Shown here piece by piece: positions 13,460 to 41,669 of a DNA stretch of 64,000 nt. How positions within the stretch are numbered: position 1 is the stretch's first letter; each line of letters begins with the position of its first letter. Under the pieces are notes generated by a model. It saw nothing but the letters and a program-made list of their open reading frames with translations. It had not been told where the DNA came from and did no database searches. Position numbers and translations under genes: made by a program. This DNA comes from Ampullaceana balthica (lineage: Eukaryota > Mollusca > Gastropoda > Lymnaeidae), in assembly GCA_944989445.1 (NCBI GenBank), contig CALYLW010000424.1, positions 1-64,000 of the forward strand, written 5' to 3'.

Positions 13460-13690
13460 GACGATTTAATGTGAAACTCGGGCTGCGAGTTGTCCGTGGC
13501 CCCGACTGGTGTTATGGGGATGTATATCAAGAGGGTTTAGTTGGTACTGTCGTAGTAATTGGAGGACAATGTGGGTCAACAGCACCAGAAAGATATGTCG
13601 GTGTTATCTGGGACTCTGGTGATAAAGCCTACTTCAGAGCTGGCAATGGCAACGCCTTTGATCTTCACACGTTTGATACCATTCAATGTG
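13460..13690 (+). CDS. Locus A exon: first MIB/HERC2 domain
   Basis: Acceptor CCATTAG and donor G|GTGAGT. It encodes LGLRVVRGPDWCYGD, LVGTVVVIGG, VGVIWDSGDKAYFRAG and DLHTFDTIQCG, the complete MIB/HERC2 pattern. The length of 231 nt equals the matching exon of locus B (41669-41439), and in both the acceptor lies exactly seven codons before GLRVVRG, counting the split codon. If translation instead began at ATG 13414, 46 extra bases would be coding; the paralogue argues against this. Confidence 0.8.
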
Positions 13691-16600
13691 GTGAGTTCTT
13701 TTGTACGTGAGACTTGTTCCCTAGTCACGACTTGTTCGTTAGATATGACGTGTTTACTACACACGACTTGTTCCCTACACATGACTTGTTCCTTGGACAC
13801 GACTTGTTCCCAAGACGCGACTTGTTCCCAAGACACGACTTGTTCCCTAGACACGACTTGTTCTTCGTACACCATTTGTTCCCTAGACACTACTTAATCC
13901 AAAGACACGACTTGTTCATAGATCTGCTAAGTTTGATTACATTTTAGATAAGACAAAATGCTAAGATTTTTATATAGTATCCCTTTACTAGCTATTACAC
14001 CAGTTATCTCAGGAATATGTGATGCAAAATTGTCCATAGTCTCCAAAGGCGAACAAAATAAAATAGACCAATATTTTTTCATTAGAAATTTGAGGTGTTA
14101 AGATGAACAAAACTGGGATTTTTTTAAAACGAAAATAAATAAAGCAAAAACTGGTTTTGCCCTCATTATTATGCAAGCAATAAAGAAAGTTTGTAATGAA
14201 ATTGGTAAAATTGGACCAGATTACAAATTATTATTTCAGAAAGCGAAAAAATGAGAGAAAAAAATAACATTGAATCTTTATTGACAACAGGAGTCAAGCA
14301 CGAATTCATTACATGCAAAGAATGTGGAGAAAAAGAAATAGCAGGCATCAGATGGAAGTGTACAATTTGTAATTGTACTGATCTGTGTACTTGGTGTTAC
14401 ATGTACGACAAGCATGACATCACACACACTTTCATCAGATATGAGACAGAATTATCTATTGGGTAAGACGTTTTGAAATATGATTACTCGATCAAAAAAG
14501 TTCAAAATAATTTGAAATGCATAAACAAACTTAGAAAATTAAGGTTGTGATTGTAAATGAACTATATTGTCACGGTCGAAATTAAGTCAACTGGAAAGTT
14601 GCATGGTACTTCATTCTGAATAACCGAAAATGTCTAGTCATGCTGTTCGCTTCTATTTTCCAATCTTAACATGACAGGAAATCCTCTATTCTGCAAGCAA
14701 TTTATAAAAATGTTTCATCCACTCCAGGACTCACAATAATAAACCCCAACACCCTGATACTTTTGTGTGCACCCTTACACATATAAACTAAAACATTTTC
14801 ATTTATTAACTAATCTTTTGATCTCCTCATAAATATATACTTTGCAACATGTGTTACTTTTAAATCGCTCTGACGTAGTCTTTTAAAACACTTAAAAGTT
14901 TGAAGCTTTTTAACATAAATATTTAAATAATTAGATAACCGACACGTTAATTTAAGCTTCGATTATATTGGTAAAAATTTCAAAATCTTTTTGACGAATT
15001 ATAAAAAAAATATATAATTTCATTGAAGGAAACTATAAGCGCAAACAGCTGTGTGTGTAGCTTCTTTACTCTTACCGAGACCAAACCCAGCGTCTTTTAG
15101 TCTCTTGCCTATATTTCTCTGCATGTATAGTGTCAGTTACAGTGGCGTAGCGAGGGGGAGCAGGGGGGGGGGCTATTGCCCCGGGCGGCACTTTTCTAGG
15201 GGCGGCAAATTCCTAGTCGTTAATTAGTTTCTTAAAATGAAAATTTTAAAAGCAAGAGGAGTTTTTTAAAATCGAAATTAAAGAAACGCCAAATAAGAAA
15301 TTAATAAAAGAAATAAAGGAACTATCCAAAAGCGCGTGAACGTTTTAAACCGCCAAAACTTCAAACTCCTTATTGGATATAAATTCTTCTGATAATAATA
15401 CTACTGTAATAAAAAAAGAGGCTCAATTGTTATGGGAACGGGACACTGATGTGGTGATAAACTCATTGATTCTTACAATTTGAAGTCCCGGCCCTGTTGT
15501 AAAATAATCGGGGGGGGGGTGCGGCAAATTCCTCGTTGTTAATTAGCCAAATTTTAAAACGTGAAAATAAATATTAATAAAATAAAAGAAAAGGCAAGGT
15601 AAAAAAAAATAAAAAATGAAGAACTATATTAAAATACGAGAGCGCTTCTAATGCCAAAACTCCTCATTCCATTATAAATCTGAAGTCTTCTGATACTGAT
15701 GTTACTGAGCTGGAAAACATAGGGGCTGAAAGTATGACAATAATGTGCTGGAATATATATTTGATTCAAGTTTGATTGTAACGTAAGTGAACTACTGGGA
15801 AAAAATTGTTGGCGTATTAATATGGCTTAATTTAATTTTATCGTCTTCTGTTTTGTGTCTTAAAATTAAAACAAAATTATGGAAACAATTGCTTATCTAG
15901 TTGAATTAAAACTAGGCACAAATAAATACAAAATTTAAGGGCGGAAGGTGGCAAATTCCTCGTTGTTAATTAAATAATTGTTAAAATGTGAGAATATATT
16001 TTAATAAAAGAAAAGAATAGCCAAGATAACTACTCAATATGTACTCAACATTAACAAATATTTTTGCAAATGGAAAGAATCAGAAATTGGATAAAAAAGA
16101 ATTGACAATTAATAAAGACCGACAGTTAGTTGTTGTAAAAGAAAAAACAAAGTGGCAAGAAATTATTGTTAGAAGATTTGAAATTATTAAATCCTGGGGA
16201 AATTGAATGTGACTTTTTGAGATCACAGAGAGGGCAATACTGTTGCGAATAAAGGCAATATTCTGGAACTATATTCATTAGCTTGCAAAGTACGTTCGAG
16301 CACTCCGAAAACATATTGGAAAAGGGGGTAAAAAACTTGTCATCTAAAATTCAAACTGAGCTCATAGCAATTTTAGGAGATACAGTTCACGAAAAATCAT
16401 CTTTCTTCAATAACAAGATACCAAATATCGTTCCATTGTATTTGATAGCTCTTCATATATTTGACATAAGGATAAAAAAGTCCAGTTGTGTGATATGTAA
16501 AGATTGATAATAAAAAAAGTATACGCTGTAGAATCTTTAAATGATTTCATTCAAGCAAAAGTGAATCTGCTTACGACATTTCTGAAATGATTTTGAATAA

Positions 16601-19600
16601 ATGATGCTCTTAAAATAATGGACTGCTCAGGCCCAACGTGTGTTAATACTTCTTAAGGGCTTGAAAGTATACCATAGTTCAACAAACAATCTCATGTCAA
16701 ACTCGTTCAAACAGTTAAACCTAATTTAACATGATACTCCAACTGAAACGAATTCTCCAACTATTTCAGTACATTTGAGCGTTGTTACGCATTCTTTTCC
16801 AAGTCCATACACTGTTGGAAATACCTAATTGCTTCTACAAGCAAGGCATTCAGACTTCAGGATACAAAATAGTGAATATACCATGGAGCCATTTTGAGGT
16901 TACATTGTAAGCTATAGAACTGAAAGATGCAGACAAAAGGCTCAACACACGAACAGACGCAGGAACTTTGCTAGTCACAATGAAATCGTTTTATTGTCAA
17001 AGTTATATTTAAAAAAACGCCGGAAATTCTTCACAAACGTAAAGTGCTCAACAACAAAAAAATAAATAATTCTTAGCAGTGGCTACTCACAGAAAAACTA
17101 ATGGAATAGAATACTTAAGGGATGCTTTGACATTTGATAAAATTTTATGTGGAGACCTCATCACTTTAATCGAACCTTCCAATCAAAGAACAAGAGAGCA
17201 ATTTTTGGTGATCGTAGCAAATATGTATGCACCATATATATGTAGAATATTAGTTAAGAAGAAATTTGGTTTCTTCATAAGATGAGATTAGTGTATAAAT
17301 TCGTGTGAGGCTTTGGCAGTTATATAGAATTTAGAAGACAAACTTGATTTTCGTACACCAGCAAATCTACTGGACTTTGAAAATTTGTATTCAGATTAGA
17401 GTAGTCAAAGTATCCCACATGACATAGACAGGCAAGTAATATTTTCACCACATAAATAGAAAAAAATGAATTCAAGACTAGGTGGTTTATTTAAGTTTAT
17501 AAAGATATTTAGGCTTGAAGTTACCCTGCCTAAAGTAATATAATTAATTCAAACAATGCTTACAACTGTCTTAAGTAATGCAAGGTGTTAAAAAGGCTTG
17601 TCTAAAATTATTTTAATGAAAAATTAATGACGATTAATTACGAATACACCAAAATTGTCAAATCTATTGCTATTTTGGCTATTGAGAATGCCATGGCTGA
17701 AAACATGAAAGATTGGGCCATGGGGAAAACATAAAACTTTAATTTAATTAAAGAAATAAAGCCTTTTTTAACATCAAAATATATAGTGTTTTACTATTAT
17801 ATCCTAAATAAGATTTTTTCACTTTATAGCGTTAACATATTTTACGGGGGAAGGGGGGGAGGCAAATTGGTTTCTGCCCCGGGTGGCACATACCCACGCT
17901 ACGCCGCTGGTCAGTTATCCTTTCTATCTGTATGTATTCAACTCTCCCAACAGTTTATATCCTGCAAACTAGTAAAGATGACAAATATGTGCATATATAA
18001 TCAAGTGATTTATTACAGAGTAAGAGTTCCCCCTCGTTCAGACAGTCAGCATGACAAACGCTTATCATGTGGCATCTTCAAAGGTGCATTTGTCAGTCGT
18101 GGCCAGGACTGGAATGCGAGTGACCAAGATGGTACGTTTTCTTTTCAATTGTAGGTTGCATTAACCGTTATCTTCTTTTATAGTGTACATGTCATCATCA
18201 CAAATATTTTAGAAAATGAAAAATTTTAACAAATGATTATAATGTTCATGAATACAAAATAGTAAGATTAATAATTAAGTTTGAAATGACAAATTATAAA
18301 ACATCTAATTTTTAATTATTTTTTTTTATAAGAAAAAACGAAACATTTCAGATGTCTCTTTTAGCAAGTGGTAACCAATGATAAAATTTATATTAAATTT
18401 TACTACAATCGGTTAGACTGAAAATATGTTTTAATCTGCTTTTAAAGATCTTCTATAAACAACTCCAATTTGATGTAGAGGCTATACCAGTTACTGGGCG
18501 TACCGAAGCGTCACTAGTGTTGGTATCAACCGGGGCGGTAGCTCAAGGTGTCATCCCTTTACAACTTGACCCATAGAACTCCTCCGAGTATTCCAGTGCA
18601 AAATAACGGGAATATACAGAATTTTACATTTTGGTGTCAACCCTTGTGATGGTGTCGCCCGGTACGGTTACGGTTCGCACCCCACGCAGCCCTCTAGTGA
18701 CACCACAGCTTAGCGTAACTTAATAATTAATTTTGTGACGGTGACCCGTAAAATAGCACACAACAAAAGAGCGCGGATGAAGATTGAAGGCGATTGTTCT
18801 AATAGATGCTAATGTTTCACGATGGACTACCAACCAGGTATAGCGCTCTTATGTTAGCGCCCATTTCTCGTCGCTCGTTCATCGTGCGCTCTTTAATGAC
18901 ATGTGACAAAAATTTAAAGAAGGAAAATGTTCCCAACATATGTCACACAAGTCTTGACAACATGCACAGCTAGAATAAAAGCCATTTTATTTATAATTTA
19001 GCCGGAAACAGATATTATAAATTGCCATTGAGATATTGTAAAGTATATTACATGCATAGTCAGTATATCGGATAATTTTGGCATGTAGTTTTGAAGGTGT
19101 CGCATCGGATTAGTGAAAACAACAAAAACTGGTTTTTATCTAGGCAGACAATTTTTGTATATAGCCATACTTTGCAAACAAAGCATCCTATGATAGCGCC
19201 ATAACTCGTTTAACATAGATCGAACGTTTACACGTTTATAATATAATGTGTTAGTCCTTGTAAAATGTAGAAAAAGAATCTTGAATGCGAATCTGATGAT
19301 GTGTAAAGTAATTTAAATTACAAAGAAAATATTTCGTTTTTATTCTTAGAATCCACCATTTGTATTAATGAAAATAGGTGGACCAGGAAAGAAGGGCCAG
19401 GTTATACAGATTTCCAGGTCTGGGAACATCTTAGTGAAGTGGAGTTCGGGCAATAAATACTCATATCGACTGGGATCGAATGGCAAGGTGGATCTGAAAT
19501 TTACTAGTAGCTGCTACGGTAACTTCTACTACAAGTCTCATCTTCCTATCTTGGGTAATTGCAGTGTTCTTAGTACACTGTTGTAAGGTATTTCTTTTTT

Positions 19601-22600
19601 AATGTCTTTGTATTTCCTGTTAAATATTTTAAAAGAAATTAAATTTATATATCGTAGTTAAATTATCCAGAGTTTAAAACAAAATCATTTCTAAATGATC
19701 AACCAAAAATTAGGTTAAGTATTTTTTTCCATCAATGAATTTATCTTACACAGGTAAACTGAGTGATGAACGAATAGGAATGAATTATTTTCAAAAACCT
19801 CACATATCAGTAGAAAGAAGAAAGTTATGTTGTAATAAAAAGAGGGCATTTGCTGTAACAAAGTCCAAAGTAGTAACAATGTATAAGACATAAAACACAA
19901 CACAACAATCTTATGCAACACATAAATAGTCATAGGGATTGAATACAATTATCGTGATCCAAATACGATGCTGTTTTATATCCAATTTGTGTTTCTATTA
20001 TTATTATTATTTTTTATTTAATGGTTTGTTATTAATTTTTTTAATTTTTTTTTGCAATATGTTAAAAATATAATTTTACCCTACAACGTTTTAACAGTTT
20101 AATATAATTAAAACATTATGATTTGTCATAAGAATCATCGGCACACCTGGTACCAGTAAATATTTTACTACTACCACTACCACCAACACTACTACTACTA
20201 CGACGACTATTACTTCTACTACTACTGCAACTACTGCTACTAGTGCTAATACTATTGCTACTACTTCTACTACTACTAATAATAATAATAATAATTGTAG
20301 CAGCAGTAGTAATAACAAAAAAAGCAATAAATACTTTTACGTTTTAGTCGTCAGCTAACCTCGACGATTCCAAAGGGACTAGCCACAAGAGAACACCTTG
20401 GTACCTTGTCGACTATATGAAGAGAAAAAGCAAAAAGGTAAACTCGCAGCATAAGAAAAGCGCTAACTACAGAAAGGGATTGGATTTAAATCAAGATTAC
20501 AAAACTGTGATAAGGGATCTTGAAGAATTAGAAGGTAAGAGATTATCGTATGTGTAAAAATCTAATTATATTTTGCGATATCCGGTACATATCTTCTTGG
20601 TATAAAAAGTTGGCTATATTGATGCAAAATGGGTTGGCGAGTATTTTGTCCCGATCCCTTAGCACAATGATTATATCGTGAACAAAAGTGAATAAATTGT
20701 TTTGCAGATTTTTACGAGTTAAAGATCTTTGTATTCAGCAATTTTTGCCTACAATTTACTTCGTAATCAGCTCTTTATCTTTCCTGTGAGTATTCTACCA
20801 TATGTGGTTCCTTTGATAACAAATGTTTTGCAGTGCCGATATTAGTCCTGTTAGCATGTTGAAAATACTTTTATATTACCCAACATGATTTTAACATAGA
20901 TGTCATCAGTTTTTTTAAACGCTAACGTGTCGATAGAGATTTTAGGTAACTATGTTTAGTCATGCAACATTGTGTCGAACACATTTTAATTTCTTGTATA
21001 TGGACTATATGGGGATGTAAATCGAGATTTTGATACTTCTGGGTGTTTTGAAGCTTCCTGAGTCGAAAAAAAAACAATTTTGCAATCTATCTGTATGTTT
21101 GTTTGTCTGTGTGAGTGTGAAGACGATAGCTTCAGTAACGTTGCAGTCAGGTTTATGAAAATGCATATATAAGTATTAGATTCTATACGTAGGTTTCTAA
21201 TATCTTTTGCGTTATTTCCGGCAACAAGTGCTACTTACCCCGATCCCATTTTAGGTGATATGCAAACCTTAACAGCTTTTTTACGAAGAGAGACAATGTA
21301 GTGTAAAAACTCTTGTAAATGGTAATGTCTGTGTAGTTCACTTTTCAAACAATAATTATTTATTTTTAAAATGTAGTATCCAACAAGAAGTCATCCTCAG
21401 TAAAGAAAAGTTGCTATAAGATAGGAGAAAAAGCCACAATTAATGTTGGATTATCATCGACCAGGAAACTTGAGGATGGACATGGAGGGTTTCCAGAGGA
21501 TATGCTGCTGGTATATATAATATGTTAATATATATCAAAGACATATTGTATGTCTTCAATTTTTTATAAGCTTTTAGCTGTTATAATTTTTTTTTAATGT
21601 TTTAAATATTTTTGCCATTTATTAGTCTTATTATTAATAATTAAACATTTAGTTTTAACTTGCAAGTTTTGAACGCCTTTCGTCCGTTTTAATATTAAAT
21701 GATTAATTTTTTCTTCGAGTTCTTTGCGCTCTGTAAAATACCATACTTCGTTCTACATATTTTAAAAGTCATTTTAATGTACTTCATATTTATTAATATT
21801 AATTAACTTTATTTAATGTCAACATTCTTACTGGCAATCAGAATTTGACTGGAACAATCGTAATGTATTCTACCTATAAAAATGCCAAATGGCTCATCGC
21901 TAAAATTCGCCTATTTTTATCTAGATATCATTTTTTTTTCAAATATACATTGTGTCTCTTCGAGATATATTTGGAACAATATGAAACTAATTCTATTTTT
22001 TGGTAAAACTTTTGGGGGTTGGTCACAAAAGTACAATTATTGGTGATCGCAAATTACCAATTAAACACAAAAATTGCTTTTTGAACTACATCTAAATGAG
22101 GTATATTTTATCCATTATTTACACAAATTGCCATGTAGAAATGAAAAAATGTATAAGGTATAGATAAACATATGATACAGAATAGACATCTAATTGTAAT
22201 TGAATTACATTAAGACGGACATTTGTACCATCCCTCAGTTAAAGTAAAATAGTCTTTAAAAGATAAATATAGTTTGCATTAAAATGTATCGTTACAAATA
22301 AAAGGCAAAGACGTACTGACTGATTGACTGACTGACTCATAACTAATCCTACAAATTTCCGAGTAGGCTAAGTAGAAGCATGTAACTTTAGGAAATCGCA
22401 GCTTAAATGGAACATTGGTCTGGTCTACAATTGAATAGTTTTTTTCTTTCTGCTGTAAAAATAATACTTATAAAAATCTATTTTGAAAATATTTTTTTTA
22501 AAAAGATTTTTAATTCTTTACTTAACATATATAGTCTTTATATTCTGGGAGAATATGTCATGTCTCGATTATTAAAAAGCCATGTATTAAAATGGTTTTG

Positions 22601-23612
22601 TTCATTTTAAAGATTGTATGAATCTTCATTTTTAAAAAAGTATTTAATCTTCTCGATGTTTAAAGAACACTGGACAATTTTATGTTTTTGAAACTAAGAA
22701 CACTTTTTGATGTTTGCACTTTTGTCTAATACACTCATTTAAAATTATATAATGAATGATTTTTTAAAAAGTAATATAATTAAAAACCCATTTTAAGTGA
22801 TAATTTTTTTTTAAGTATACTAAAATTTCATTTACACGTTTTCTTAAAAACATTTCTAGTGCAATAACCAACAATTAATACCTTTGAAAAGACATAATAG
22901 TACTTAAGAAATAAAGAATGCAATTAAAGCAAATGATTTTTGAAAAAAAAATTAACCCATATTACTACACTTTTTTCAGCTTCTTAATAAAATTGAAACA
23001 ACATTTTTCATCAAGGAAAATAAAGACGATGATATCAAACTCGGAGATTCCGGGCCTTACCAATTCAACCCCGAAATTCTCTCTAAGGTAGACGCATATA
23101 TTATCTAAATAACACAGATTGAAATTATATCATTCTATTTAATGTACTTAAAAGTATCATCTATAAAAACATAAGTAAAAGTTTTTGCAAATCAAATTTC
23201 TATGCTACATGACTAAAGTACAACTTTTCGTAAACAATGTATGCAAGATAAAACAAAACTATTAACAGACGACTTAAAATAACGTAGCACATTTTATGTA
23301 TACTTTTTAAAATAGAACATATTACAATGTTTATGCTTAACTTTTAATAGTCACATACGAGTATTTCATGGAGAGTTTTTCTTACAGATGAAATCTGATC
23401 CCGATTTAACAGAGCAGGAAATGACACAAAAGAAAAAAGTTCCTTCTGCAGGTAAAAAGTTCGAATGCACCAGATGCCAGACTCATGATGATTGTGCGGC
23501 ATTCGTACCTTGTGGTCATATTGCCTCTTGTCGGAAATGTTCTAAGATGTTTGTCATATGCCCACTTTGTCGCAAGGAGGTTAAAGGAAGTCTCCGTGTT
23601 TTCATTCCATGA
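13460..23612 (+). CDS. Mind bomb-like E3 ubiquitin ligase, locus A (8 exons seen)
   Basis: Spliced gene; exons 13460-13690, 14240-14462, 18019-18131, 19378-19554, 20355-20534, 21377-21510, 22980-23087, 23388-23612. All introns are GT-AG and all phases agree, giving about 462 residues after a split first codon. Domain order: MIB/HERC2, ZZ finger, second MIB/HERC2, lysine-rich linker, one MIB repeat (SH3-like) and one RING. In Mind bomb ligases the MIB-ZZ-MIB module binds the tails of Notch ligands and the RING recruits E2; those proteins also have a second repeat, ankyrin repeats and further RINGs, all absent here. A substrate-binding ubiquitin ligase is therefore likely, but the target is unknown. 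The 5' exon supplying one base of the first codon is not found. Locus B is its convergent paralogue. Confidence 0.85.
13713..13925 (+). repeat. 18-bp minisatellite in locus A intron 1
   Basis: About eleven to twelve imperfect copies of an 18-bp unit close to ACACGACTTGTTCCCTAG, starting some 20 bp after the exon 1 donor. Because 18 is a multiple of three it produces spurious open frames on both strands; I treat these as artefacts. Confidence 0.9.
14240..14462 (+). CDS. Locus A exon: ZZ zinc finger
   Basis: Acceptor TTATTTCAG, donor GG|GTAAGA. The ZZ finger reads CKECGEK, WKCTICNCTDLCTWCY and KHDITHTF, with all the expected zinc-binding cysteines and two histidines. It is followed by IRYETELSIG, which leads into the second MIB domain. 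It is 54 nt longer than its counterpart in locus B because of a longer N-terminal spacer. Confidence 0.9.
14463..15131. other. Start of locus A intron 2, AT-rich
   Basis: Intron sequence up to the hAT insertion; no feature recognised. Confidence 0.6.
15140..17909 (+). mobile_element. Complete hAT transposon remnant in locus A intron 2
   Basis: Inverted ends CAGTGGCGTAGCGAGGG and (complement of the right end) CAGCGGCGTAGCGTGGG, both followed by a GCCCCGGG-type block. They are flanked by a perfect 8-bp duplication GTCAGTTA at 15132-15139 and 17910-17917. The 2770-bp body holds degraded transposase and three internal copies of a GGCAAATTCCT-CGTTGTTAATTA motif (15203, 15523, 15950). ZMYM1/DUF4371-type hAT is the likely family. 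Confidence 0.9.
16283..16507 (+). pseudogene. hAT transposase fragment (ZMYM1-like)
   Basis: The frame carries ENILEKGVKNLSSKIQTELI and ILGDTVHEK, typical of DUF4371/ZMYM1-like hAT transposases. No continuous frame is left upstream or downstream. It belongs to the element at 15140-17909. Confidence 0.7.
18019..18131 (+). CDS. Locus A exon: start of second MIB/HERC2 domain
   Basis: Acceptor TTATTACAG, donor G|GTACGT. It codes for VRVPPRSDS, then GIFKGAFVSRGQDWN and DQDG, the first half of the second MIB/HERC2 domain. The glycine codon GGA is split between this exon and the ZZ exon. At 113 nt it is the same length as the locus B exon at 35123-35011. Confidence 0.85.
18480..18965 (-). repeat. 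Dispersed repeat with hAT-like MITE ends, copy 1
   Basis: The reverse complement matches 44709-45135: an AACATTTTCC block, a segment with AGAACAATCGCCT, then a MITE-like piece starting GCTGTGGTGTCACTAG and containing ACCGGGCGACACCAT. It lies in intron 3 of locus A. No coding capacity. Confidence 0.7.
19378..19554 (+). CDS. Locus A exon: end of second MIB/HERC2 domain
   Basis: Codes for GGPGKKGQVIQISRSGN, VKWSSGNKYSYRLGSNGKVD and FYYKSHLPILG, the C-terminal half of a MIB/HERC2 domain. Two AGs are possible; the one ending at 19377 keeps frame (GAT GGT GGA across the junction) and gives 177 nt, identical to the locus B exon at 34567-34391. The upstream AG at 19349 would shift the frame. Confidence 0.85.
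20160..20310. repeat. Trinucleotide (ACT/CTA)n tract in locus A intron 4
   Basis: An imperfect CTA/ACT repeat ending in (AAT)n, about 45 bp before the acceptor of the next exon. The long antisense open frame over it is simple-sequence only. Confidence 0.9.
20355..20534 (+). CDS. Locus A exon: basic linker
   Basis: Codes for a charged linker: LDDSKGTSHKRTPWYLVDY, MKRKSKK, then a Glu-rich end LEELE. The first AG (20347) would give an immediate stop; the AG at 20353-20354 restores the frame. Locus B has two different, longer exons here, so this linker is the fast-evolving part of the protein. Confidence 0.75.
21377..21510 (+). CDS. Locus A exon: MIB repeat, first half
   Basis: Acceptor AATGTAG, donor CTG|GTATAT. 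The hallmark IGEKATINVGLSS and KLEDGHGGFPEDM correspond to the GDKV.V.LSV...LQEGHGGW pattern of Mind bomb repeats, which in Drosophila and vertebrate MIB help bind Notch ligand tails. Length 134 nt, the same as 29686-29553 in locus B. Confidence 0.85.
21511..22979. other. Locus A intron 6, AT-rich
   Basis: Holds a short (ACTG/GACT)n run at about 22313-22340 like the one at about 61753-61780. Nothing else recognised; the frame at 22407-22610 is hydrophobic low-complexity sequence. Confidence 0.5.
22980..23087 (+). CDS. Locus A exon: MIB repeat, second half
   Basis: Acceptor TTTTTTCAG, donor AAG|GTAGAC, phase 0 on both sides, 36 codons. It encodes LLNKIETTFFIKENKDDD and ends YQFNPEILSK, matching the closing F.FNP..L segment of MIB repeats. 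Same length (108 nt) as 29109-29002 in locus B. Confidence 0.85.
23388..23612 (+). CDS. Locus A exon: C-terminal RING finger
   Basis: Acceptor TTCTTACAG, phase 0, stop TGA at 23610-23612. A lysine-rich lead (KKKVPSAGKK) precedes the RING: CTRCQTHDDC, VPCGHIASCRKCS and CPLCRKEV, the C3HC4 pattern with the cysteine-histidine order of MIB/IAP-type C-terminal RINGs, then SLRVFIP at the very end. All eight zinc ligands are present, so the RING should fold and bind E2. Confidence 0.9.
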   Translation: MKSDPDLTEQEMTQKKKVPSAGKKFECTRCQTHDDCAAFVPCGHIASCRKCSKMFVICPLCRKEVKGSLRVFIP

Positions 23613-25869: not shown

Positions 25870-26325
25870 ATTGGAGTGTGTCTTTCCATGCACCAAAGAA
25901 AACATTGATAAAGTATAACAAAAGTTTAAATAAAAGAGCTATCAGATCCATTACTTGTGAATATTCAAAACTGACAATAGTAACATCATTAAATATAGAT
26001 TTACTACAGGGTAGAAGAACAAAGAGTAAAGTAGTAATAATACATAAGGCAAATAATTCTAACTTAGAAAAACAACACAAAGATAATCTGAATCCAACCT
26101 CAGATAGAATTATGGATGATAACAATTTTCTTACTCCAAGTGCACGATTAAACACAAAATATCGTTCTTACCGTCTGGAATTCAGGCATAGGATGAGTTG
26201 CCTGCTTAAACATGGAAAATCGACTATCAACATTTAAAACTCCAATAAAAAAGACATAAGCCATCTATACACAATAATCTTCTGTATAGAAGGAGCGTCT
26301 GTAATAGATAAGATAATGTGACTTA
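25870..26325 (+). mobile_element. LINE 3' end (CR1/jockey-like), copy 2
   Basis: Codes for RAIRSITCEYSKLTIV and GRRTKSKVVIIHKA, the same RT C-terminus as at 9972-10425. The shared 3' UTR AATCTTCTGTATAGAAGGAG and a short AGATAAGATAA tail follow. It is severely 5'-truncated. Confidence 0.75.
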
Positions 26326-26635: not shown

Positions 26636-26859
26636 CTAAGGAACGAAAATGCGAAAAGAGCTTTTAATGACAGCACGGCAAATAGGGCATGTACCAAAAC
26701 ACTTTGCGCATTTTCTGCAACAAGCCACATGCCCGCAAGGTAAAAGGCTACACAAGCTTCCTTAGTGAGACATATAGTACAATTTGGCCTCACTACTTCA
26801 GGGTTCACTTTTACCTTCTTTGGTATATCATTCTTTTCTGGCTCTAAAATATCTGGAAC
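26636..26859 (-). CDS. Locus B exon: RING finger with 1-nt deletion
   Basis: Acceptor TTTTTCAAG. It reads VPDILEPEKNDIPKK, then CTICLTKEACVAF in frame. The remainder of the RING (PCGHVACCRKCAKC, CPICRAV, then FRIFVP and TAG) lies in the next frame. The break falls at a run of four T on the minus strand (26745-26742); adding one base would give 225 nt, exactly the length of the locus A exon. Taken literally, the RING is lost after its first cysteine pair. Confidence 0.85.
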
Positions 26860-27016
26860 CTTGAAAAAAAAACAAAGACAATGTTCGGAAATATTTCAGA
26901 AAGTAACAGTGTCGCTTATATTATAATATGTATACAATTTTAGAAAATAATATTTTTTATTTTATAGAATAGTTATGTTTGATTTCTACCTTGTAAAATA
27001 TTTATATACATGTATA

Positions 27017-28628
27017 GCAGGCAAAGTGTGAAATTCAGGCATTCTATATAATGCCTAGGCAATGTATAGAGTGCCTGATGGTTTCAGGCAAAGTATGAAA
27101 TGATGGCTATTTCATACATTTCCTAGGCATTCTATAGAATGCCGAGTTGTCGTCAGACAAAGTATGTAATTGGCCTACCCCCGCCATTTTTCCAGCCACT
27201 GATGTTGGTGGTGGTGCTTTGGTCGTTGTTTGATGATGGCGATCGAAGTCTGTGAGTGTTGAACGTTATTGTAAGACAGTGTTAAGCCGGTACGAGGTTT
27301 CACTACCAAATCAAAGACAATATTGCCTAAATTCTTCTCACGATGTCAGTTTATATCATCCGGCTGAGATTCCACAGACGTTCTCCCATAACGTTTCCCC
27401 TTGGATTGCTGTGTGACCATGTCGGAAGAAAATATAGTGCTAGGACAGGAATCACGTCATGTTGACATGCAACGACGATTCTACGATGAGTTATCTAAAG
27501 TAAGAGCCAATGCTGCTAAAAACAGCGTTTTTTTAAACAGAAACTGTTACCAAAAATTGGTGGATGATATGAAAATGGCTAAGACCACCATTAAGCAAGA
27601 ACCACGGGACTATTGGCTGGTGAAACACTATGATGTCATGATGGATGGAAAATAAGAGTAAAATGATCTACCTTGTTAAAGTGAGTGCCATTCTGTTTTA
27701 CGTCACGGAATCCGAGATATACTTCATAAAGCACATTTGGCCATTGGTTATCGAGGACAGTACAGAATGTTGAAAGAACTTTCACCCAAATACAAGAAAG
27801 CTACCCGTCATGATATTGAACTGTGTATTAAATTTATGTGAACCTTGCCAGAAAAAACAAAAAAGTATTTTAAAAAAGGCATTGTTGTCAAGACAATGGC
27901 TTTTTCTGAATGCATCTCTCGTTGTCAGGTAGGTGTTATCGACTTTCAATCACATTCTGATGGGGAATACAATTTTATAATGGTGTATCAAGAACATCCC
28001 ACCAAGTTCGTGGTTCTCAAGGCCCTGACGACAAATATGGCACAAGAAGTAGCATACCAGCTCGTAGAAATATTTACGTTGCTTGGTGCTCCAACGATTC
28101 TACAGTCAAATAACGGCAGGGAATTTGCAAACAATGTGGTAAGCAGCCTAAAGGAATACTGGCCCACCTTGAAGATCGTTCATGGTAACCCGCGCCACAT
28201 ACAAAGCCAGGGGAGCGTCGAAAGAGCTAACTAGGACATCGAATATATGCTGTGTGCTTGTATGCAAGATGAAATAACTGGCCACTGGAGTGAGGGGTTA
28301 CGGTTCGTCCAACTCAAGAAGGACAGAGCTTTTCATTATGGTATTAAAAGATAACCATACAAAGCTCTCTTTGGATGCAGAGCTAAAGTAGGCCTCACAA
28401 CGTAGTCCCTACCTGACGATGTTTTACAAGATGTGGAATCAGAGGAAGACCTCGAAAAAATAATACAGAGCGTACATCATGTGCTTTATTTTGTATCACA
28501 TCCCCTTTAAAATACGTAATTATCAATAGTCTTTTGTTGTGCTCTTTTTACACTTTGCCTAATCGAAATCCGGCATTCTATAGAATGCCTAGACATTCTA
28601 TAGAATGCCTGATTTCACACTTTGCCTG
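27017..28628 (+). mobile_element. KRBA2-like integrase DNA transposon in the last intron of locus B
   Basis: Flanked by inverted repeats of roughly 45 bp beginning CAGGCAAAGTGTGAAAT and containing CAGGCATTCTATA; the right end is the complement, closing ATTTCACACTTTGCCTG. Palindromic CATTCTATAGAATG units recur within both ends. A degraded integrase-type gene lies between. TIR-bearing integrase elements are known as Ginger or IS3EU/IS481EU types; I cannot fix which. No clear target duplication was seen. Confidence 0.75.
27401..28500 (+). pseudogene. DDE integrase-like transposase, degraded
   Basis: The N-terminal part (27401-27655) reads RRFYDELSKVRANAAKN and KQEPRDYWLVKHYDVM. After stops and frame changes the rve-type core at 27845-28234 reads VIDFQSHSDGEYNFIMVYQE, LVEIFTLLGAPTILQSNNGR and HIQSQGSVERAN. 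The first Asp (VID) and the Glu (SVERAN) are kept, but the second expected Asp is Asn (QSNNGREF where relatives have SDNG). A TAG follows at once. This matches KRBA2-like proteins derived from integrase transposons. Confidence 0.75.
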
Positions 28629-28878
28629 TAACATATATATATATTTTTCAATCAATTCAGCTAACTCTAATATAATATTGATCAACTTTATGTTTTACGG
28701 AAATTAAAGATTGCACTTTTGTGTGTGTGTTTTTTTTTGCATCATCAATGTAAACATCTTCAGTTCGTACTCATTACGCAATATGCTAAATAAAATGAAT
28801 AACAGAAAACATTAGTATATAACAAGTTTAACTCCTTCTTTTAACTCGTTAATGATTGTACAAAAAAAATTAGGTAAA

Positions 28879-29001: not shown

Positions 29002-29109
29002 CATATTGAGAGCTTCTGGATGGAACGTGTGTAGCTCACAATCACCAAATTTTACATTCACGTCACCATTTTCATTTATTGAAAGAACTGTTCCAATTTT
29101 ACCAATGTG
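29002..29109 (-). CDS. Locus B exon: MIB repeat, second half
   Basis: Acceptor TTAAAAACAG, donor ATG|GTTTGT. It codes for HIGKIGTVLSINENGDVNVK and LHTFHPEALNM, 36 codons in phase 0. It fits the MIB repeat consensus (G.V..I..DGDV.V.F ... F.P..L) better than the locus A copy does. Confidence 0.85.
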
Positions 29110-29552: not shown

Positions 29553-29686
29553 CTGTAACATACTGTTAGGATTTCTTCCGTATCCTTTCTGAAGTCTTGT
29601 GAGTCTAGACAATTCTTCATAAATTTTGACTCTGTCTTGCCTTTTAAAAACGATTGTCTTTTTCGATGCTTGCAAATACCTTTTAT
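29553..29686 (-). CDS. Locus B exon: MIB repeat, first half
   Basis: Acceptor TTTAAATTCAG, donor CAG|GTATAT, 134 nt. It reads KKTIVFKRQDRVKIYEELS and LTRLQKGYGRNPNSMLQ, the first strands and GHGGW-like turn (here GYGRN) of a MIB repeat. Confidence 0.85.
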
Positions 29687-30925: not shown

Positions 30926-31133
30926 TTCCTGAACCCCCAAGTTGGTCATTCCGTCTCCTATCTTCCATGTCATTCCGTCTCCTATCTTCCATGTCATTCC
31001 GTCTCATGTCTTCCATGTCATTCCGTCTACTATCTTCCATGTCATTCCGTCTCATATATTTCATGTCATTCAGTCATCTATCTTCATAGTTAATGAAAGA
31101 GTTCCTTCCTCCTGAGTTCATTTGTTCAGAAAC
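30926..31133 (-). CDS. Locus B exon: minisatellite-encoded linker with stop codon
   Basis: Acceptor AATTTCAG, donor GGAA|GTGAGT. It opens VSEQMNSGGRNSFINYEDR and then meets TGA (31076-31074). Beyond the stop the same frame gives RRNDMED repeats and finally QLGGSGSE. The stop is a change in the first unit of the coding repeat. The exon before it plus this one total 276 nt, a multiple of three. Confidence 0.75.
30951..31080 (-). repeat. 24-bp coding minisatellite in locus B
   Basis: Five to six copies of a 24-bp unit (minus strand GGAGACGGAATGACATGGAA plus GATA) encode eight-residue repeats of the type EDRRRNDM. It is absent from locus A, so it arose after the duplication. Confidence 0.9.
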
Positions 31134-31369: not shown

Positions 31370-31437
31370 TATTGTTTCATCGGTTGAAATTCTAACTCCT
31401 TCAAAGAATGATTCTATTCTATCTTCATTTACTGCAC
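31370..31437 (-). CDS. Locus B exon: short acidic linker
   Basis: Acceptor TTTTTTACAG, donor ATA|GTAAGT. It reads AVNEDRIESFFEG and VRISTDETI; 68 nt, entering in phase 1 and leaving in phase 0. It has no obvious counterpart in locus A. Confidence 0.7.
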
Positions 31438-33662: not shown

Positions 33663-33689
33663 ATATGAAAATTTGATTAAGCGTTAACT

Positions 33690-34390: not shown

Positions 34391-34567
34391 CGACAACTGG
34401 AAGATGACTCTTGTAATAGCTGCGCCATACTCTGGGCTCTTTACATTTCAAGTCCACCTTGCCATCCTTTCCAACGCGGTAGTTGTAGGTCAACCCTGAC
34501 CTCCAATTGACGGTGTATTCTCCCCATTTTGATATATGCACCACCTCACCGATATTGCCATCTCCTC
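34391..34567 (-). CDS. Locus B exon: end of second MIB/HERC2 domain
   Basis: Acceptor TTTCTTCAAG, donor CG|GTATTT, 177 nt. It codes for GGDGNIGEVVHISKWGE, TVNWRSGLTYNYRVGKDGKV and YYKSHLPVVG, an intact domain end. Confidence 0.9.
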
Positions 34568-35010
34568 CTTGAAGAAAGTATAGCCATATTTACCGAGATA
34601 TCAATAGCAAATGAGAACATGTTCCGTTTAATGCATAGTATATTATCTTGAGAACTAAAACAAAATCAACAACAAAAAAAAATAATAATAAAAAAGGAAA
34701 CTTTATCTTTAGTAAATTTATACACAGTAACTACAAAATTTAAGAAAAAAATTGACTAGCCATTGTCATTATCATCAGGGGTAAAGTTAAATATTTTTTG
34801 TTTAAGCTTTGCGATTTAACCCAAGAAACTCTATTAGTGTATAACTTTGTGTTATAAAGTATGCAGCAAAAGGGTGCGTCGATATTTAAAAATTACAAAA
34901 TGGGATTTTTAATCTTTGCTCTCAAATCTAGGTAGAATTTAAATTCAGTCCTCTAGGTAATAATTTAAGACATGCTTTATCATGTATAATAGTCTGCCAA
35001 ACCGACTGAC

Positions 35011-35123
35011 CATCTTGGTTTCCTCCACACCAGTCTGGTCCACGCACAACATGCGCGTATTTAAGTAGTCCGAAAGCTGCACGTTTTTCCATCATACTGC
35101 TCCATCGAGAGGGAACTGGGACG
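35011..35123 (-). CDS. Locus B exon: start of second MIB/HERC2 domain
   Basis: Acceptor TGTTTTAG, donor G|GTCAGT, 113 nt. It reads VPVPSRWSSMMEKR and YAHVVRGPDWCGGNQDG, a better consensus match (VVRGPDW..GNQDG) than locus A. Confidence 0.9.
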
Positions 35124-35913: not shown

Positions 35914-36020
35914 GTGGTTCTCAACCTTTTTAGGTTCAAGGATCACTTGAAAAATGTGTGTCTTTGTCAAGGATCACTAATAAAGAAAATTGTGCTATTG
36001 CCTTGTTGGAAATTTATATA
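35914..36020 (+). mobile_element. Truncated hAT end
   Basis: Starts CAGTGGTTCTCAACCTTTTT, a hAT terminal repeat type, with AAGGATCACT repeated twice. It is cut off by the Helitron at 36027, which probably inserted into it. Confidence 0.55.
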
Positions 36021-36026
36021 TACCTA

Positions 36027-37465
36027 GACGCCCCGCGGCGTAGCATACGCCGCAGACTTGCTCATGGAGAGTTCTTTTACCCCTTTAATGCACTTTTTTA
36101 GGGCGCCTACGGCGCCGACCTTTTTCAAAATCCCAACTAACTTGTCCTTGCTTGATCAATACGAAATATTAAACTTTCTGAAATGCACACAAAGTATTTT
36201 ATAATAGAGGTTGTTTTTTGATGTTATAATTAATCATCATCAAATCCTCTTTTTAAATCCTTTATATTAACTCGTGGTGTCTGCGGCGGACCTTGCTTGC
36301 TTGCTTGCTTGCTTGCTTGTCGCCAAAACTTTTGATCGATTTTTAACCCACTTGCTCGCAAGATAGCGAGCTGAAATTTTGCAGGCAGTTTTGTACCAAT
36401 AATAAAAACAATGTATCAAAATTTCAGATCGATCGCATGTACCGTAATTAAATTATTGATTTTTTAGATTATTTTATTTATTCCTATGTATCATGCTATT
36501 TTTTGAGATAGAGCGTCGCGGTGCGTATTATATTGAACAACCTTTCTGTCGCGCAATAAGGTGCGTATTTTATTGACAGCTCTTTTTATAAACATATTCC
36601 TGATCGGTGCGCATTATATTAAACACGTTTTACGACACAACTGCAATTTTGTATTTCTGGATGGTCTGGCGCTGCGTATTATAATGAACATTCTTTTAAT
36701 TACTTCTCGTACATAAAGGATTTATAGTCAAAAACTTGGTTTTTTACGGGTTGTTTTTATTAAATCCTTTATATTAACTCGTGGTGTCTGCGGCGGACCT
36801 TGCTTGCTTGCTTGCTTGTCGCCAAAACTTTTGATCGATTTTTAACCCACTTGCTCGCAAGATAGCGAGCTGAAATTTTGCAGGCAGTTTTGTACCGATG
36901 ATAAAAACAATGTATCAAAATTTCAGATCGATCGCATGTACCGTAATTAAATTATTGATTTTTTAGATTATTTTATTTATTCCTATGTATCATGCTATTT
37001 TTTTAGATAGAGCGTCGCGGTGCGTATTATATTGAACAACCTTTCTGTCGCGCAATAAGGTGCGTATTTTATTGACAGCTCTTTTTATAAACATATTCCT
37101 GATCGGTGCGCATTATATTAAACACGTTTTACGACACAACTGCAATTTTGTATTTCTGGATGGTCTGGCGCTGCGTATTATAATGAACATTCTTTTAATT
37201 ACTTCTCGTACATAAAGGATTTATAGTCAAAAACTTGTTTTTTTTACGGGTTTTTCTTATTACATTGTTCCCTTTTTACAAAATTAAAATATCAGCGAAA
37301 TCAACGACGTCATATAATTTCTTTTTACAGCGCATATTTAATTTTCACACCTTTTGATGCATTGGTGCAGTAATTTGGTGCGCTGCTTTCTAAAAGTAGT
37401 ATCTGTTGCACATGCAGATTCTTGTTGATTCAGGGTCCGACCACGAAGAGAATTATATATATAGA
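36027..37465 (-). mobile_element. Non-autonomous Helitron with internal tandem duplication
   Basis: Minus-strand element. The 5' end reads TCTATATATATAATTCTC at 37465, preceded by A. The 3' end has a perfect 8-bp-stem hairpin GCGGCGTA-TGC-TACGCCGC (36053-36035) followed, after a short spacer, by CTAG (36027-36024). The 3' flank is G, not the usual T. It contains two copies of a 507-bp unit and no coding. It sits in a locus B intron, about 195 bp from the ZZ exon. Confidence 0.75.
36255..37262. repeat. 507-bp tandem duplication
   Basis: Two near-identical units start at 36255 and 36762 with AAATCCTTTATATTAACTCG. The first has five to six CTTG/GCTTG repeats near 36292-36318, the second fewer. 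Near identity indicates a recent duplication inside the Helitron. Confidence 0.9.
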
Positions 37466-37658
37466 TAGAAGATTATATTTTTTATATAACGAGTTACTAG
37501 TATACATGTTAGTTTAGTCTTTACTATACTGATATTCTACGATTTGCGTGCTCCCAAAAATATTGAATGGAAACAGATTATAATGGCTTTCTTTTGTAAT
37601 GAACAAATGTCCCTTATTCTTCTGAGAACGACTGCACTACAGTACAACAATAATGTAC

Positions 37659-37827
37659 CCAACAGACAAATGTGTTTCGTATCTGATGAAAGGATGTGAG
37701 GTATCATGCTTGTCAGACATGTAACAATCAGTACACAAGGTAAGGCCGGAACACAGAGAACATTTCCATTTAAAGCCTGTAATCCCTCCTTCTCCACAGT
37801 TGTTGCAGTTGGGAATGTGGAATACAC
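37659..37827 (-). CDS. Locus B exon: ZZ zinc finger
   Basis: Acceptor ATTGACAG, donor GG|GTACAT, 169 nt. It codes for CNNCGEGG, WKCSLCSGLTLCTDCY and KHDTSHPFIRYE, with all cysteine and histidine ligands of the ZZ finger kept. The next residues, THLSVG, lead into the second MIB domain as in locus A. Confidence 0.9.
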
Positions 37828-37926
37828 CTGTCAATATTTAAAGGAGTTGTTTGCATCAATAAAGCGTATGGTCACTTTATTTCTTTAATTTTAATTTGTG
37901 TAGGTCTTCTTTTAAAATAAAGCATA

Positions 37927-38160
37927 CTAGGTACGACCCGCGGCGTAGCATACGCCGCAGACTTGCTAATAGAAAGTGCAAAGAAAGGGGAGAAGAAAGG
38001 ACACAAACAGCAGCATGAAGAAATGGGAACAACGCCCGAGAACGTTAAGACGACCGCCGACGCATTTTTAGTCTGGAGACATGCACACTGCGGTTGAGCC
38101 GCCCTCCATGCACAACCCTGGCATGCCGACCATAAACTGTGATTGAAACATAGTTTTTTT
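37927..38160 (-). mobile_element. Helitron 3' end (minus strand), truncated or undefined 5'
   Basis: CTAG at 37930-37927 with T as 3' flank, preceded by the same GCGGCGTA-TGC-TACGCCGC hairpin (37958-37940). The sequence to the right is not alignable to the other Helitrons here and no TC-type 5' end was found, so the right limit is arbitrary. Confidence 0.65.
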
Positions 38161-38194
38161 AATGTTTTAAAATGTTTTTAGTGAAATATTCTTG

Positions 38195-38197
<3 letters not shown>

Positions 38198-38260
<63 letters not shown>
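38198..38260. repeat. (AT)n microsatellite
   Basis: About 31 AT units followed by CATATACATATATA. Confidence 0.95.
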
Positions 38261-38275
<15 letters not shown>

Positions 38276-38276
<1 letters not shown>

Positions 38277-38710
38277 AGGGCTGGTAACGATTAAATTAAA
38301 TTTAATCGTTAACTTTTGAAAAATTAACGATTAATTTCATGAATTAATAGTTAATTTCGATTAAAGCCTAAAATTAAAATTTAAGACGTTATTAAACTGA
38401 ACACCTCAAGGGACTTAACAAAACAGGTAATTTACATTTTGTTTTGAAAAATAATATTTTGAATTCAATTTTATTTTAGTAAATCCACGTCTACATACAT
38501 TTTTAAATTAAAATAATACGCGGGTGATGTTTGTACATTAAAAATATTTAAATTATGATTAATAATTAATTATTTTTTAATAAATTGAAGAAAACAAATT
38601 ATAAATATTTTCTTAAATTTAAATCTAATTTTTATCGATTAAAATTATGTCCGTCGTTGGTTAATGGATAACATTGTTTTAATCGATATTTAATTCAACT
38701 CATAGTACAC
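38276..38710 (+). repeat. AT-rich MITE-like repeat, copy 1
   Basis: Begins TAGGGCTGGTAACGATTAAA and is rich in TTAACGATTAAT and its complement, so it is internally self-complementary. The copy at 58610-59220 is inverted. It has no coding and probably belongs to a hAT-like MITE family. Confidence 0.6.
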
Positions 38711-39059
38711 GCTAATCGGACATCGGGGCCATACATTTCGTTTTTCATAATATGAGCACAGATTGAAATATCATAGTACATTGAACTCCTAATATCTATT
38801 TTTTCTCGGCCTGGGGACAAATAAAACGAATATAACGAAAGTCCAGTGGACTAATTGGATTTCACCGCAGCTAAGTTTTTTTTATTCTTTCGTTATATTC
38901 GTTTTATTTGTGTACTATTTGTTCGTTGAGGAAGGCTCTTTGCCGTTCGCTGTTTTGTTACGTCCTGGCAGGCTAACTATTACCCTGTTTATATGTTATA
39001 CCCTTACTAATTTAAAAGCCTGGTCGCAGTCTCACCCCCATTATTTTATTTACATAGAA

Positions 39060-39265
39060 ATACAAAGAGATAAACAAAAAATCCATTAATTTAAATACGT
39101 TAAATTTGCTCGATCTGAAATTTGGATGCAATGCATTGTCAGGTGACACAATTCTATGTGCAAAATTTCAGCTCGATAGCATTGCAGGAAGTGGGTCATT
39201 TTTTACTTTTATTTTTATCGCGGGACCGACCCTACCAGAGACCAGACGGTGAGGTTAATATAAGG
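39060..39265. repeat. Helitron-type module with ATGCATTGTC core
   Basis: AATCCATTAATTTAAATACG, GATCTGAAATTTGGATGCAA followed by TGCATTGTC, CAGCTCGATAGCATT, AAGTGGGTCATTTTTTAC, and TTAATATAAGGGATTTAAA at its edge. The same series of blocks is found at 43200-43425. Confidence 0.65.
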
Positions 39266-39572
39266 GATTTAAATGGGATCTTATTAAGCAATGGGATTTT
39301 GGAATGGCCAAAAAAAAGTGTTTGTATTAGGCCTAATATTAATACTTTTTTGCAAATAGTTCAAAATAAGAATATTTATTAAAGCTAGAAATGCCTGTAA
39401 AAATAGAAGTGGTGATGCTTGAAATTCCCATTTTCTAAAAGTATTTGACAGATCAGGCATTGAAGTAACCCCCTTGAAAAATTCTAATTAGTACAACTAC
39501 CAACCATCAACTGTTTTTTTTTCTTTCAGCAACTCTTTTAAATAAAAATCGTAGATTTTTCAGGTACATAGT

Positions 39573-39720
39573 ACAGTGGTATTTCGTTATACGTCTGCTT
39601 TGGTATAAGTCCAACTTGGTATACGTCCTGTTTTGACTCGAAACATTTTGCTTGATATACGACCTTTGTTTGGAATACAAACTTTTTTTTTGGAAAACGA
39701 CCCACGTGCTAGAACTGAAT
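39573..39720 (+). repeat. Tigger-like terminal repeat remnant
   Basis: CAGTGGTATTTCGTTATACG followed by TCTGCTTTGGTATAAGTCC resembles pogo/Tigger ends (CAGTGGTACCTCG type). A matching right end could not be assigned with confidence. Confidence 0.45.
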
Positions 39721-39949
39721 GGGGTCGTTCATAAAGGACATCACGCCATTTGGGTCGATTCCCTGTTCCCTCCTCGTCACAAGACGTCACAGAAAGTTAC
39801 CCCTTCAAATATGACATCACAAAGATTCGCCCCCTCCCCCAATAAAACCCGTAATTCCTATTTGAAAATGAGCAGGTTTCAAATCACTTTGTTGTCATTT
39901 AAGTATGTATTTAGTTTAGTGTAAGGCTGCACTCCAACATAGTAACACG

Positions 39950-40130
39950 CGTGAATACATTTAAAACATCATTAAATAAATTATAAGCAATCAAATATTT
40001 ATTTGTGGATCTTATATTTAAAGTTGCGCGTTTTAATGTGACGTCACAATGTTTAAACACCCCCCCCTCCGGCTCGTCACACATCGTAACAAAAGTGTGA
40101 CCCCCTCCCCCTAGAAACGTGACGTCATTT
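39950..40130. mobile_element. MITE with paired TGACGTCA blocks, copy 2
   Basis: Contains AATGTGACGTCACAATG, a CCCCCCC stretch, GTAACAAAAGTGTGACCCCC and ACGTGACGTCATTTTATAC. Same family and orientation as 33480-33662. Confidence 0.65.
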
Positions 40131-40187
40131 TATACGCGATACTGAGGTGTTTTTGATACGGCAGTTGTGTAATAAAATATTACAGCA

Positions 40188-40943
40188 TCTATATATATAA
40201 TTCACCAAAGCGAGTATGTGTAAATGATCATGACAAATGACCCTCTCTGGGGTCAACTAATCACAGTTAACGGTTGGCAAGCGAAGGAAGTGGAGGGAAA
40301 AGCATGTCTTGAAACCAGCAATGCTTTTTGCCTTCACTTAAGCTGTTCCCTCACAGAGTACATGTATTTCGTAGTGTACTGGTTATTACATCCGCCTGAC
40401 ATGCGGAAGATTTTAGGTGCAAGCCCCAGCGGAAACATTTAAACAAAAAAAGTAATGTTTATGCCCGTTCTTTTCCCCCTTTCTTAGCGAACATAAACAT
40501 TTCGCATTTATTTCACGGAAAAAATCTTGGTTAAATGTTATACCGATTCCTTCATCAATAAACTGTCTGTTTCTATCGGTCACATATTTCTGGGAAAAGA
40601 TCAAATATGACGAAGTTTTTTCTCTCCAACTTGGCTAGATGGCTGTAATATTTGTTTCTCAACATTGGGATAACTTCGGCGACGAGCTCTCCGTTGTTCT
40701 CAGTGACGAAAAAATAGTCATACACTCAGTACATCAATACTTCAGGAGTGTATGGTGGCGAGGCAGAAATTGTCGCGATGTCCGAAATACTTATCAAAAA
40801 TGCTTCGGCGGTCCCCCCAATGTTCACTCGCGTGGTTTCCATTTGTTCGTGCTAATCTTTCTGCCCGTTCTGTCCCATACCCTTTTCTTTGCACTATATA
40901 TGAGTAAGTCTGCGGCATATGCTACACCGCGCGTGGTATCTAG
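40188..40943 (+). mobile_element. Non-autonomous Helitron carrying a tRNA-Val-like sequence
   Basis: The 5' end is TCTATATATATAATTCACC at 40188, preceded by A. The 3' end has a decayed hairpin (40912-40930, GCGGCATA-TGC-TACACCGC) and CTAG at 40940-40943, followed by T. A-to-T flanking fits Helitron insertion. It shares its 5' end type with the Helitron at 36027-37465, but the interior differs and includes a tRNA-like segment. Confidence 0.75.
40364..40436 (+). tRNA. tRNA-Val-like pseudogene (anticodon GAC) inside a Helitron
   Basis: 73 nt with GTAGTGTACTGGTTATTACA (A box and D arm), anticodon arm CCGC-CTGACAT-GCGG giving GAC, and the 3' acceptor-like CGGAAAC of animal tRNA-Val. The B box is degenerate (GGTGCAAGCCC) and the 5' acceptor strand pairs poorly, so it is a pseudogene or SINE head rather than a working tRNA gene. 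Confidence 0.55.
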
Positions 40944-41438
40944 TTAAAATTATTAATGGAAAATATTGGTCAATCATAGATGTACACAAAATTATTTTAA
41001 GTTACAATTATATTTAAATATGTATGTGTAGTGTTCCTAAATGTAATATTTTACATTATGAAGCTATTGATAATTATTTCTAAAAAACTGGACTTTAAAA
41101 GCTTTATAAGGATAAAATATTGTTACAAAATTAATATTTTAAATTCTCCAAGTGCGTTATTGTCTAGTGCGCATATGCCTGGTCACCATATTATATACAG
41201 CTATTTCTTAAAAATGGCTGTTGTCAAAATTTTTATCTTGTAGTAGAGTTTTTGGAAGAATTTTTAAAATCTTCAATATTATGAGTTATTTATATTTTTC
41301 CATACTAATAACCGTTTGGTAAACACAATTAATATTTAAAAAAAAAGAAAATCTAAAAACACAATATATTAAATAAATATTACTTGTATGTATTACGATC
41401 CTGGCTGTGCGGTGTGTTGGTGCGATACATTAACTTAC

Positions 41439-41669
41439 CACATTGAATATTATCATATACGAGTAGGTCATAGGCGTTTTCATAACCAGATCTACAATAC
41501 ATCTTGATTCCGTTATCCCAGAGCACTCCGACAGACTTCGCAGGAGCCACACTTCCACTTCTACCACCAATCTCTACAACCGTGCCAACTAATCCTTCAA
41601 GGATGTTGTCACCGTAATCCCAGTCAGGTCCACGCACTACTCGGAGTCCTAGATATGCATTATTGTAAC
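41439..41669 (-). CDS. Locus B exon: first MIB/HERC2 domain
   Basis: Acceptor TTCCATCAG, donor G|GTAAGT, 231 nt. It reads YNNAYLGLRVVRGPDWDYGD, LVGTVVEIGGRSGSVAPAKS and VGVLWDNGIKMYCRSG, a full domain. The first codon is split, so an upstream exon ending in one coding base must exist beyond 41669. Confidence 0.9.

Follow-up and report, generated by a model that had tools for sequence, protein, structure and literature searches.

The two loci that face each other in the stretch of Ampullaceana balthica DNA analysed here (the window, 64,000 nt of contig CALYLW010000424.1, or C424) raise the question of whether they are the two arms of an inverted duplication and whether both still encode working ubiquitin ligases. 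Mind bomb proteins are known mostly as Notch-ligand ligases, and the MIB-ZZ-MIB region is their substrate-binding module. We consider it fairly probable that the two loci, A and B, are old paralogues of a MIB2-derived family of RING E3 ligases that expanded in freshwater pulmonate snails, that their lineage lost a second cassette, and that A retains a weak RING and B is decaying or gives a RING-less product.

Splice-signal models gave seven exons for each locus (see the table below), with the same entry and exit phases in A and B from E1 to E6 (1-1, 1-2, 2-1, 1-1, 1-0 and 0-0) and convergent last exons terminating at 23612 (A) and 26636 (B). These sites are predictions from the genomic sequence, and automatic splice scoring favoured alternatives for E2, E3, E4 and E7 of A, for E1 and E3 of a third copy, C, and for E1 and E4 of the model M1 and E7 of M2; there the sites matching the homologues were retained, so those exon lengths rest on comparison and not on score. 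According to Pfam, two MIB_HERC2 domains flank a ZZ finger in both loci, all above the cut-offs, and one SH3_15 unit (the Mind bomb repeat) is present in each (26.8 bits in A and 45.2 in B; cut-off 24). A RING was recognised only in A (PF13920, 35.1 bits, cut-off 27), that of B not being recognised as assembled, and the scan of both seven-exon models found no ankyrin family. Residues 6-312 of A align to the MIB1 structure 4xi6 (E 1.4e-56), bearing out the kinship with Mind bomb that had been proposed. The solved RINGs closest to that of A, C-terminal tail included, are those of the IAPs (BIRC2, BIRC3 and XIAP), although IAPs have BIR domains and Pfam found none in the A model. The common plan of A and B, as predicted, is thus MIB-ZZ-MIB, SH3_15 and a C-terminal IAP-like RING exon, without ankyrin repeats and with MIB2-type exons.

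The splice models and Pfam agree with the original prediction that the facing loci share domain order, phases and exon lengths. Its domain list (MIB-ZZ-MIB-RING) was right in what it named but overlooked the SH3_15 encoded by the 134- and 108-nt exons, and the lengths given for the last exon, 225/224, were correct but their difference is a 1-nt frameshift in the RING of B. The absence of shared intron sequence also holds: at E 1e-3, the only two non-exon matches between the loci (10080-10416 with 26003-26316 on the opposite strand, and 44 nt at 18620-18662 with 42771-42728) both fall outside the span from the first to the last exon of B.

Predicted exons of loci A and B (window coordinates)
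Feature	Length (nt)	Position	Strand	Basis	Remark
A start exon	10	9123..9132	+	pattern match	ATGGATTCAG, M-D-S-G; outside the interval originally described
A E1, first MIB_HERC2	231	13460..13690	+	splice model, PF06701 genome search, Pfam	
A E2, ZZ zinc finger	172	14291..14462	+	splice model, Pfam	
A E3, second MIB part 1	113	18019..18131	+	splice model, Pfam	
A E4, second MIB part 2	177	19378..19554	+	splice model, PF06701 genome search, Pfam	
A linker L1		19754..~19869	+	probable exon	3' end uncertain (19809, 19854, 19869 or 19872)
A linker L2	187	20348..20534	+	probable exon	
A E5, SH3_15 part 1	134	21377..21510	+	splice model, Pfam	
A E6, SH3_15 part 2	108	22980..23087	+	splice model, Pfam, comparison with relatives	
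A E7, C3HC4 RING and stop	225	23388..23612	+	splice model, Pfam	Arg codon 23472-23474
B E1, first MIB_HERC2	231	41439..41669	-	splice model, PF06701 genome search	no in-frame ATG
B E2, ZZ	169	37659..37827	-	splice model, Pfam	
B E3, second MIB part 1	113	35011..35123	-	splice model, Pfam	
B E4, second MIB part 2	177	34391..34567	-	splice model, PF06701 genome search, Pfam	
B linker L1	68	31370..31437	-	probable exon	
B linker L2	208	30926..31133	-	probable exon	in-frame TGA 31074-31076, 24-nt repeat
B E5, SH3_15 part 1	134	29553..29686	-	splice model, Pfam	
B E6, SH3_15 part 2	108	29002..29109	-	splice model, Pfam	
B E7, RING exon	224	26636..26859	-	splice model, comparison with A and C	frameshifted

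Two further linker exons, L1 and L2, are probable between E4 and E5 of each locus, and by eye they are similar to the linker of the Lymnaea stagnalis protein P0126. The short start exon of A has a weak donor (GTTGGT), but the same ATGGATTCAG was matched in copy C at 86102-86093, the surroundings of both can be aligned (152 columns, 71%, E 1.6e-8), and P0121 of L. stagnalis begins MESG-RSN. With this exon and the two linkers, A is open on the predicted exons from 9123 to 23612, giving 470, 485, 490 or 491 codons according to which L1 donor is used. In the case of B, a pattern search between 41.7 and 73.4 kb recognised no such start exon. Two tandem arrays lie close to these exons, one of 24 bp (5.9 copies, 30945-31085) inside L2 of B, with RRNDMED-like units beside the TGA, and one of 18 bp (11.5 copies, 13711-13917) starting about 20 nt past the E1 donor of A.

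The exon pattern itself is older than A and B. A gene on contig C166 of the same genome has exons of 231, 172, 113, 195, 137 and 111 nt with the phases of A and B, and we take it as MIB2 because it has two SH3_15 units, ankyrin-like exons downstream (by eye) and a short end branch (0.036) in the first-exon tree. MIB-ZZ-MIB followed by SH3_15 is therefore common to this gene and to A and B, which differ from it in having a single SH3_15, no ankyrins, extra linker exons and an E4 of 177 nt. The MIB1 copy, on C504, also has MIB-ZZ-MIB plus the repeat (as in PDB 4xi6, 4xi7 and 4xib), but its introns cut the second MIB domain elsewhere and it has two SH3_15. As MIB2 already has these lengths and phases, the lengths of E1, E3 and the E2 of A, together with the phases, are inherited. 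Judging from the gene models, the equal exon lengths of A and B are not due to chance; nevertheless, most of them are present in MIB2 and in other copies and so they are not the sign of an A-B duplication that had been seen in them. The 177-nt E4 is common to A, B and C, as opposed to 192-198 nt in four modelled modules of contig C10, and on this comparison it marks the three copies as a subgroup.

The suggestion that two copies in so short a stretch belong to a larger local family was well founded. The PF06701 profile gave 68 exon matches genome-wide, and reading the flanks identified 33 first-MIB exons, those of MIB2 and MIB1 and another 31 that belong to the short family and lie on C424, C35 and C10. 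We assigned the latter manually from their flanks to three types: 13 are type I, 14 type II and four type III (A, B, C and C35:40k). Type I exons contain an ATG in 12 of 13 cases (the exception is C10:987k), and type II exons are internal and follow a linker, which has an in-frame ATG in three of the 14 (C35:99k, C424:94k and C10:2685k). Every one of the 13 type I exons has a type II exon as the next one, an arrangement reached in none of 100000 shuffles of 30 labels (A was omitted, being on the other strand). Along C35 and C10 the order is I-E4-II-E4-(SH3_15)-RING, and the SH3_15 (five) and RING (eight) matches listed for the main clusters of these contigs all lie after a type II exon and before the next type I. 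On this evidence most copies of the family form predicted two-module genes. For some of these genes there is no RING match among the 59 listed in the genome, many of which lie on contigs that have no MIB exon, and in the model for C10:987-998 kb the first two cysteines are missing from the RING exon. The RING exon at C2528:23331-23540, on a contig with no listed MIB_HERC2 match, shares 47% identity with that of A over almost its whole length.

In contrast to the two-module genes, A, B and C have one MIB-ZZ-MIB module each. Copy C lies at 85-73 kb of C424, and no further MIB exon was found from 42 to 80 kb, a stretch in which 75001-80000 reads N; a coding exon considered in a 5-kb open stretch of C was discarded as an artefact of these 5000 N. 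Upstream of C, the modules at about 94.2-91.4 kb (type II) and 120.9-113 kb (type I) have in-frame stops in E1, and the 121-91 kb region is probably a decayed two-module gene.

The relatives in other species are all predicted proteins and come mainly from freshwater snails. The joined two-module model found its best matches in Lymnaea stagnalis, Biomphalaria, Bulinus and Physella, and predicted MIB2-like or uncharacterised proteins of L. stagnalis, Biomphalaria glabrata, Bulinus truncatus and Physella acuta belong to the same family as A and B, many of them with two modules. Ankyrin families occur in 93 of the 120 matches listed (of 992), and the other 27 comprise 24 from these snails plus P0024 (Frankliniella), P0025 (Amblyomma) and P0051. 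Four MIB and two ZZ domains were found in six of ten proteins scanned (P0001, P0003, P0004, P0008, P0016 and P0017, the last without SH3_15), the others having four and one (P0010), three and two (P0005), three and one (P0020) or two and one (P0027). A second scan of ten proteins found four MIB and two ZZ in P0002, P0009, P0018 and P0024, and a ZZ alone in P0025. As P0024 (four MIB, two ZZ and an SH2) comes, if the source name is right, from the thrips Frankliniella occidentalis, the initial view that only snails have the two-module form was abandoned. Of nine two-module proteins of L. stagnalis that were compared, five match an adjacent I-II pair (P0001, P0006, P0009, P0018 and P0019), and the other four (P0002, P0007, P0012 and P0015) do not. 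P0002 has one SH3_15 stretch between the modules and another after both, suggesting that the duplicated piece was not always E1-E4. P0123 and P0127 are further single-module relatives, without ankyrins. P0121 is single-module too, and its model has just the first half of SH3_15; the gene model of P0122 has no RING. Among the papers listed by literature searches there was no account of these snail genes, and neither "mib" nor "mind bomb" occurs in the main text of PMC8861042 and PMC5440852.

The trees bear on whether A and B arose directly from one another. In the four-exon tree (35 rows and 233 columns; P0017 and P0023 were dropped for having no usable module and the decayed C424 modules were left out), A, B and C group with the snail first modules (99/98) and form a clade with P0121 and P0122 (97/91), so A and B do not belong to unrelated clades. 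Within it B pairs with P0122 (99/91), C pairs with P0121 (100/98) and A joins the latter two (93/88); P0027 is placed among the second modules in spite of being single-module. These pairings, together with an A-B Ks of 2.1 over E1-E4, near saturation, agree with the old split originally proposed. That this split was a direct local inverted duplication, as was also proposed, would fit two adjacent, convergent loci with equal exon lengths, and it draws some support from the first-exon tree (33 rows, 72 columns), where A and B are weakly paired (85/70) and types II (84/80) and III (87/92) each lie on one side of a branch, III being closer to I. The C-terminal tree (11 rows, 169 columns) is poorly resolved, with most forks open, and neither its pairing of A with P0126 (77/81) is decisive nor does it reject A+B (p-AU 0.07). 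However, the AU test on the binding module rejects an A+B clade (p 0.019), the four-exon tree joins A to C and B to P0122, and most of the exon lengths come from MIB2, all of which makes a direct inverted duplication very unlikely.

It could also be argued that A and B are the final modules of longer genes, with their 5' modules elsewhere or lost, given that E1 of B has no in-frame ATG and that two modules are the usual number in the other genes of the family. We regard this as extremely improbable, because P0121 is single-module with its own MESG start, A and C have a start exon with common flanks, and all three copies nest with first and not with second modules. A version in which A and B were orphan third modules of three-module genes, prompted by the missing ATGs and the gene order, was ruled out by the P0121 start and the start exon of A and C. 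Being single-module and nested among first modules, A, B and C have probably lost the second module. The reading of A and B as old paralogues of a two-module family would then involve an ancestor that duplicated the MIB-ZZ-MIB cassette and a subgroup, A/B/C, that later lost the second one; the cassette of four exons is of phase 1 at both ends, so it could be duplicated or lost in frame.

Regarding activity, neither RING looks competent. E7 of B lacks one base relative to A and C, within or adjoining 26739-26748, and its reading frame breaks down ahead of the histidine ligand; skipping L1 and L2 would keep the frame and avoid the TGA, but the RING would still be shifted. The RING of A has its zinc ligands complete but reads C-T-R-C, with Arg before the second Cys, where Ile or Val is found in all 113 RINGs recognised by pattern among 135 proteins, as well as in C, M2 and four further RING exons of the genome (including one from C2528, a contig that has no MIB exons); BIRC3 (3eb5) has Val at the aligned position. 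We take this residue to be E2-facing, as Ile26 of BRCA1 and its equivalents in similar RINGs, and the RING of A probably recruits E2 poorly. It might be that A and B nonetheless both work fully as short E3 ligases of the Mind bomb type, the Arg of A and the frameshift of B being tolerated changes or assembly errors. The lesion of B falls within or adjoins a T run, where an assembly error is possible, A is open throughout on its predicted exons with a RING above the Pfam cut-off, and Ka/Ks is about 0.2 over E1-E4, though with Ks near or beyond saturation. Against this, B carries in addition the TGA in L2 and no start exon was recognised for it, the SH3_15 of A deviates from its relatives at conserved positions, and Ka between A and C reaches its highest values in E6 (0.47) and E7 (0.60), compared with 0.21-0.39 in E1-E4. 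Moreover, the module end branches of the four-exon tree are long in B (0.38), P0122 (0.37) and A (0.30) compared with C (0.16) and P0121 (0.14), and those of the C-terminal tree are 0.71 in B, 0.68 in P0122, 0.60 in A, 0.40 in P0121, 0.35 in C and 0.08 in P0126. Full function of both thus seems rather unlikely, and for B the likeliest reading is that of a gene in decay or the source of a RING-less product.

A quite unlikely possibility is that A and B are retained as catalytically dead Mind bomb decoys, which would have kept the substrate-binding module and lost the RING by different routes: the change from Ile/Val to Arg in A and the frameshift in B, whose L. stagnalis counterpart P0122 is also RING-less in its gene model. 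Such decoys would rival the active two-module ligases in binding the same tails of membrane proteins.

In MIB1, according to PMC11887331, the MZM and REP parts bind two boxes in the tails of Notch ligands, and most of the activity in flies resides in MZM. By homology, the module and SH3_15 of the snail proteins may bind peptides of a membrane-protein tail and the RING may recruit an E2, so that members of the family would be expected to bind peptide tails and, if their RING is intact, to ubiquitylate. Returning to the family of old paralogues that we favour, its ankyrin-less arrays with duplicated modules and the single-module derivatives with damaged RINGs would form a natural series in which to ask what the module binds, whether two modules act together and whether a ligase can change into a decoy. 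Furthermore, Biomphalaria and Bulinus carry relatives of these genes and are hosts of human blood flukes, which makes a possible role in immunity or development worth testing.

Finally, the window contains several other elements. A transposon-like insert occupies 27003-28643 in the last intron of B, with terminal inverted repeats (27003-27034 and 28612-28643, 84%) and an open frame at 27842-28231 that is integrase-like by eye and has no Pfam match. LINE-like fragments on the minus strand extend over 3510-5704, where a reverse transcriptase is matched at 3510-3995 and the endonuclease matches, at 5033-5704, stay below the cut-off. A GC-rich block at 48001-52566 (0.51 at 48-52 kb) contains repeated segments of 83-100% identity and has long frames without Pfam match.
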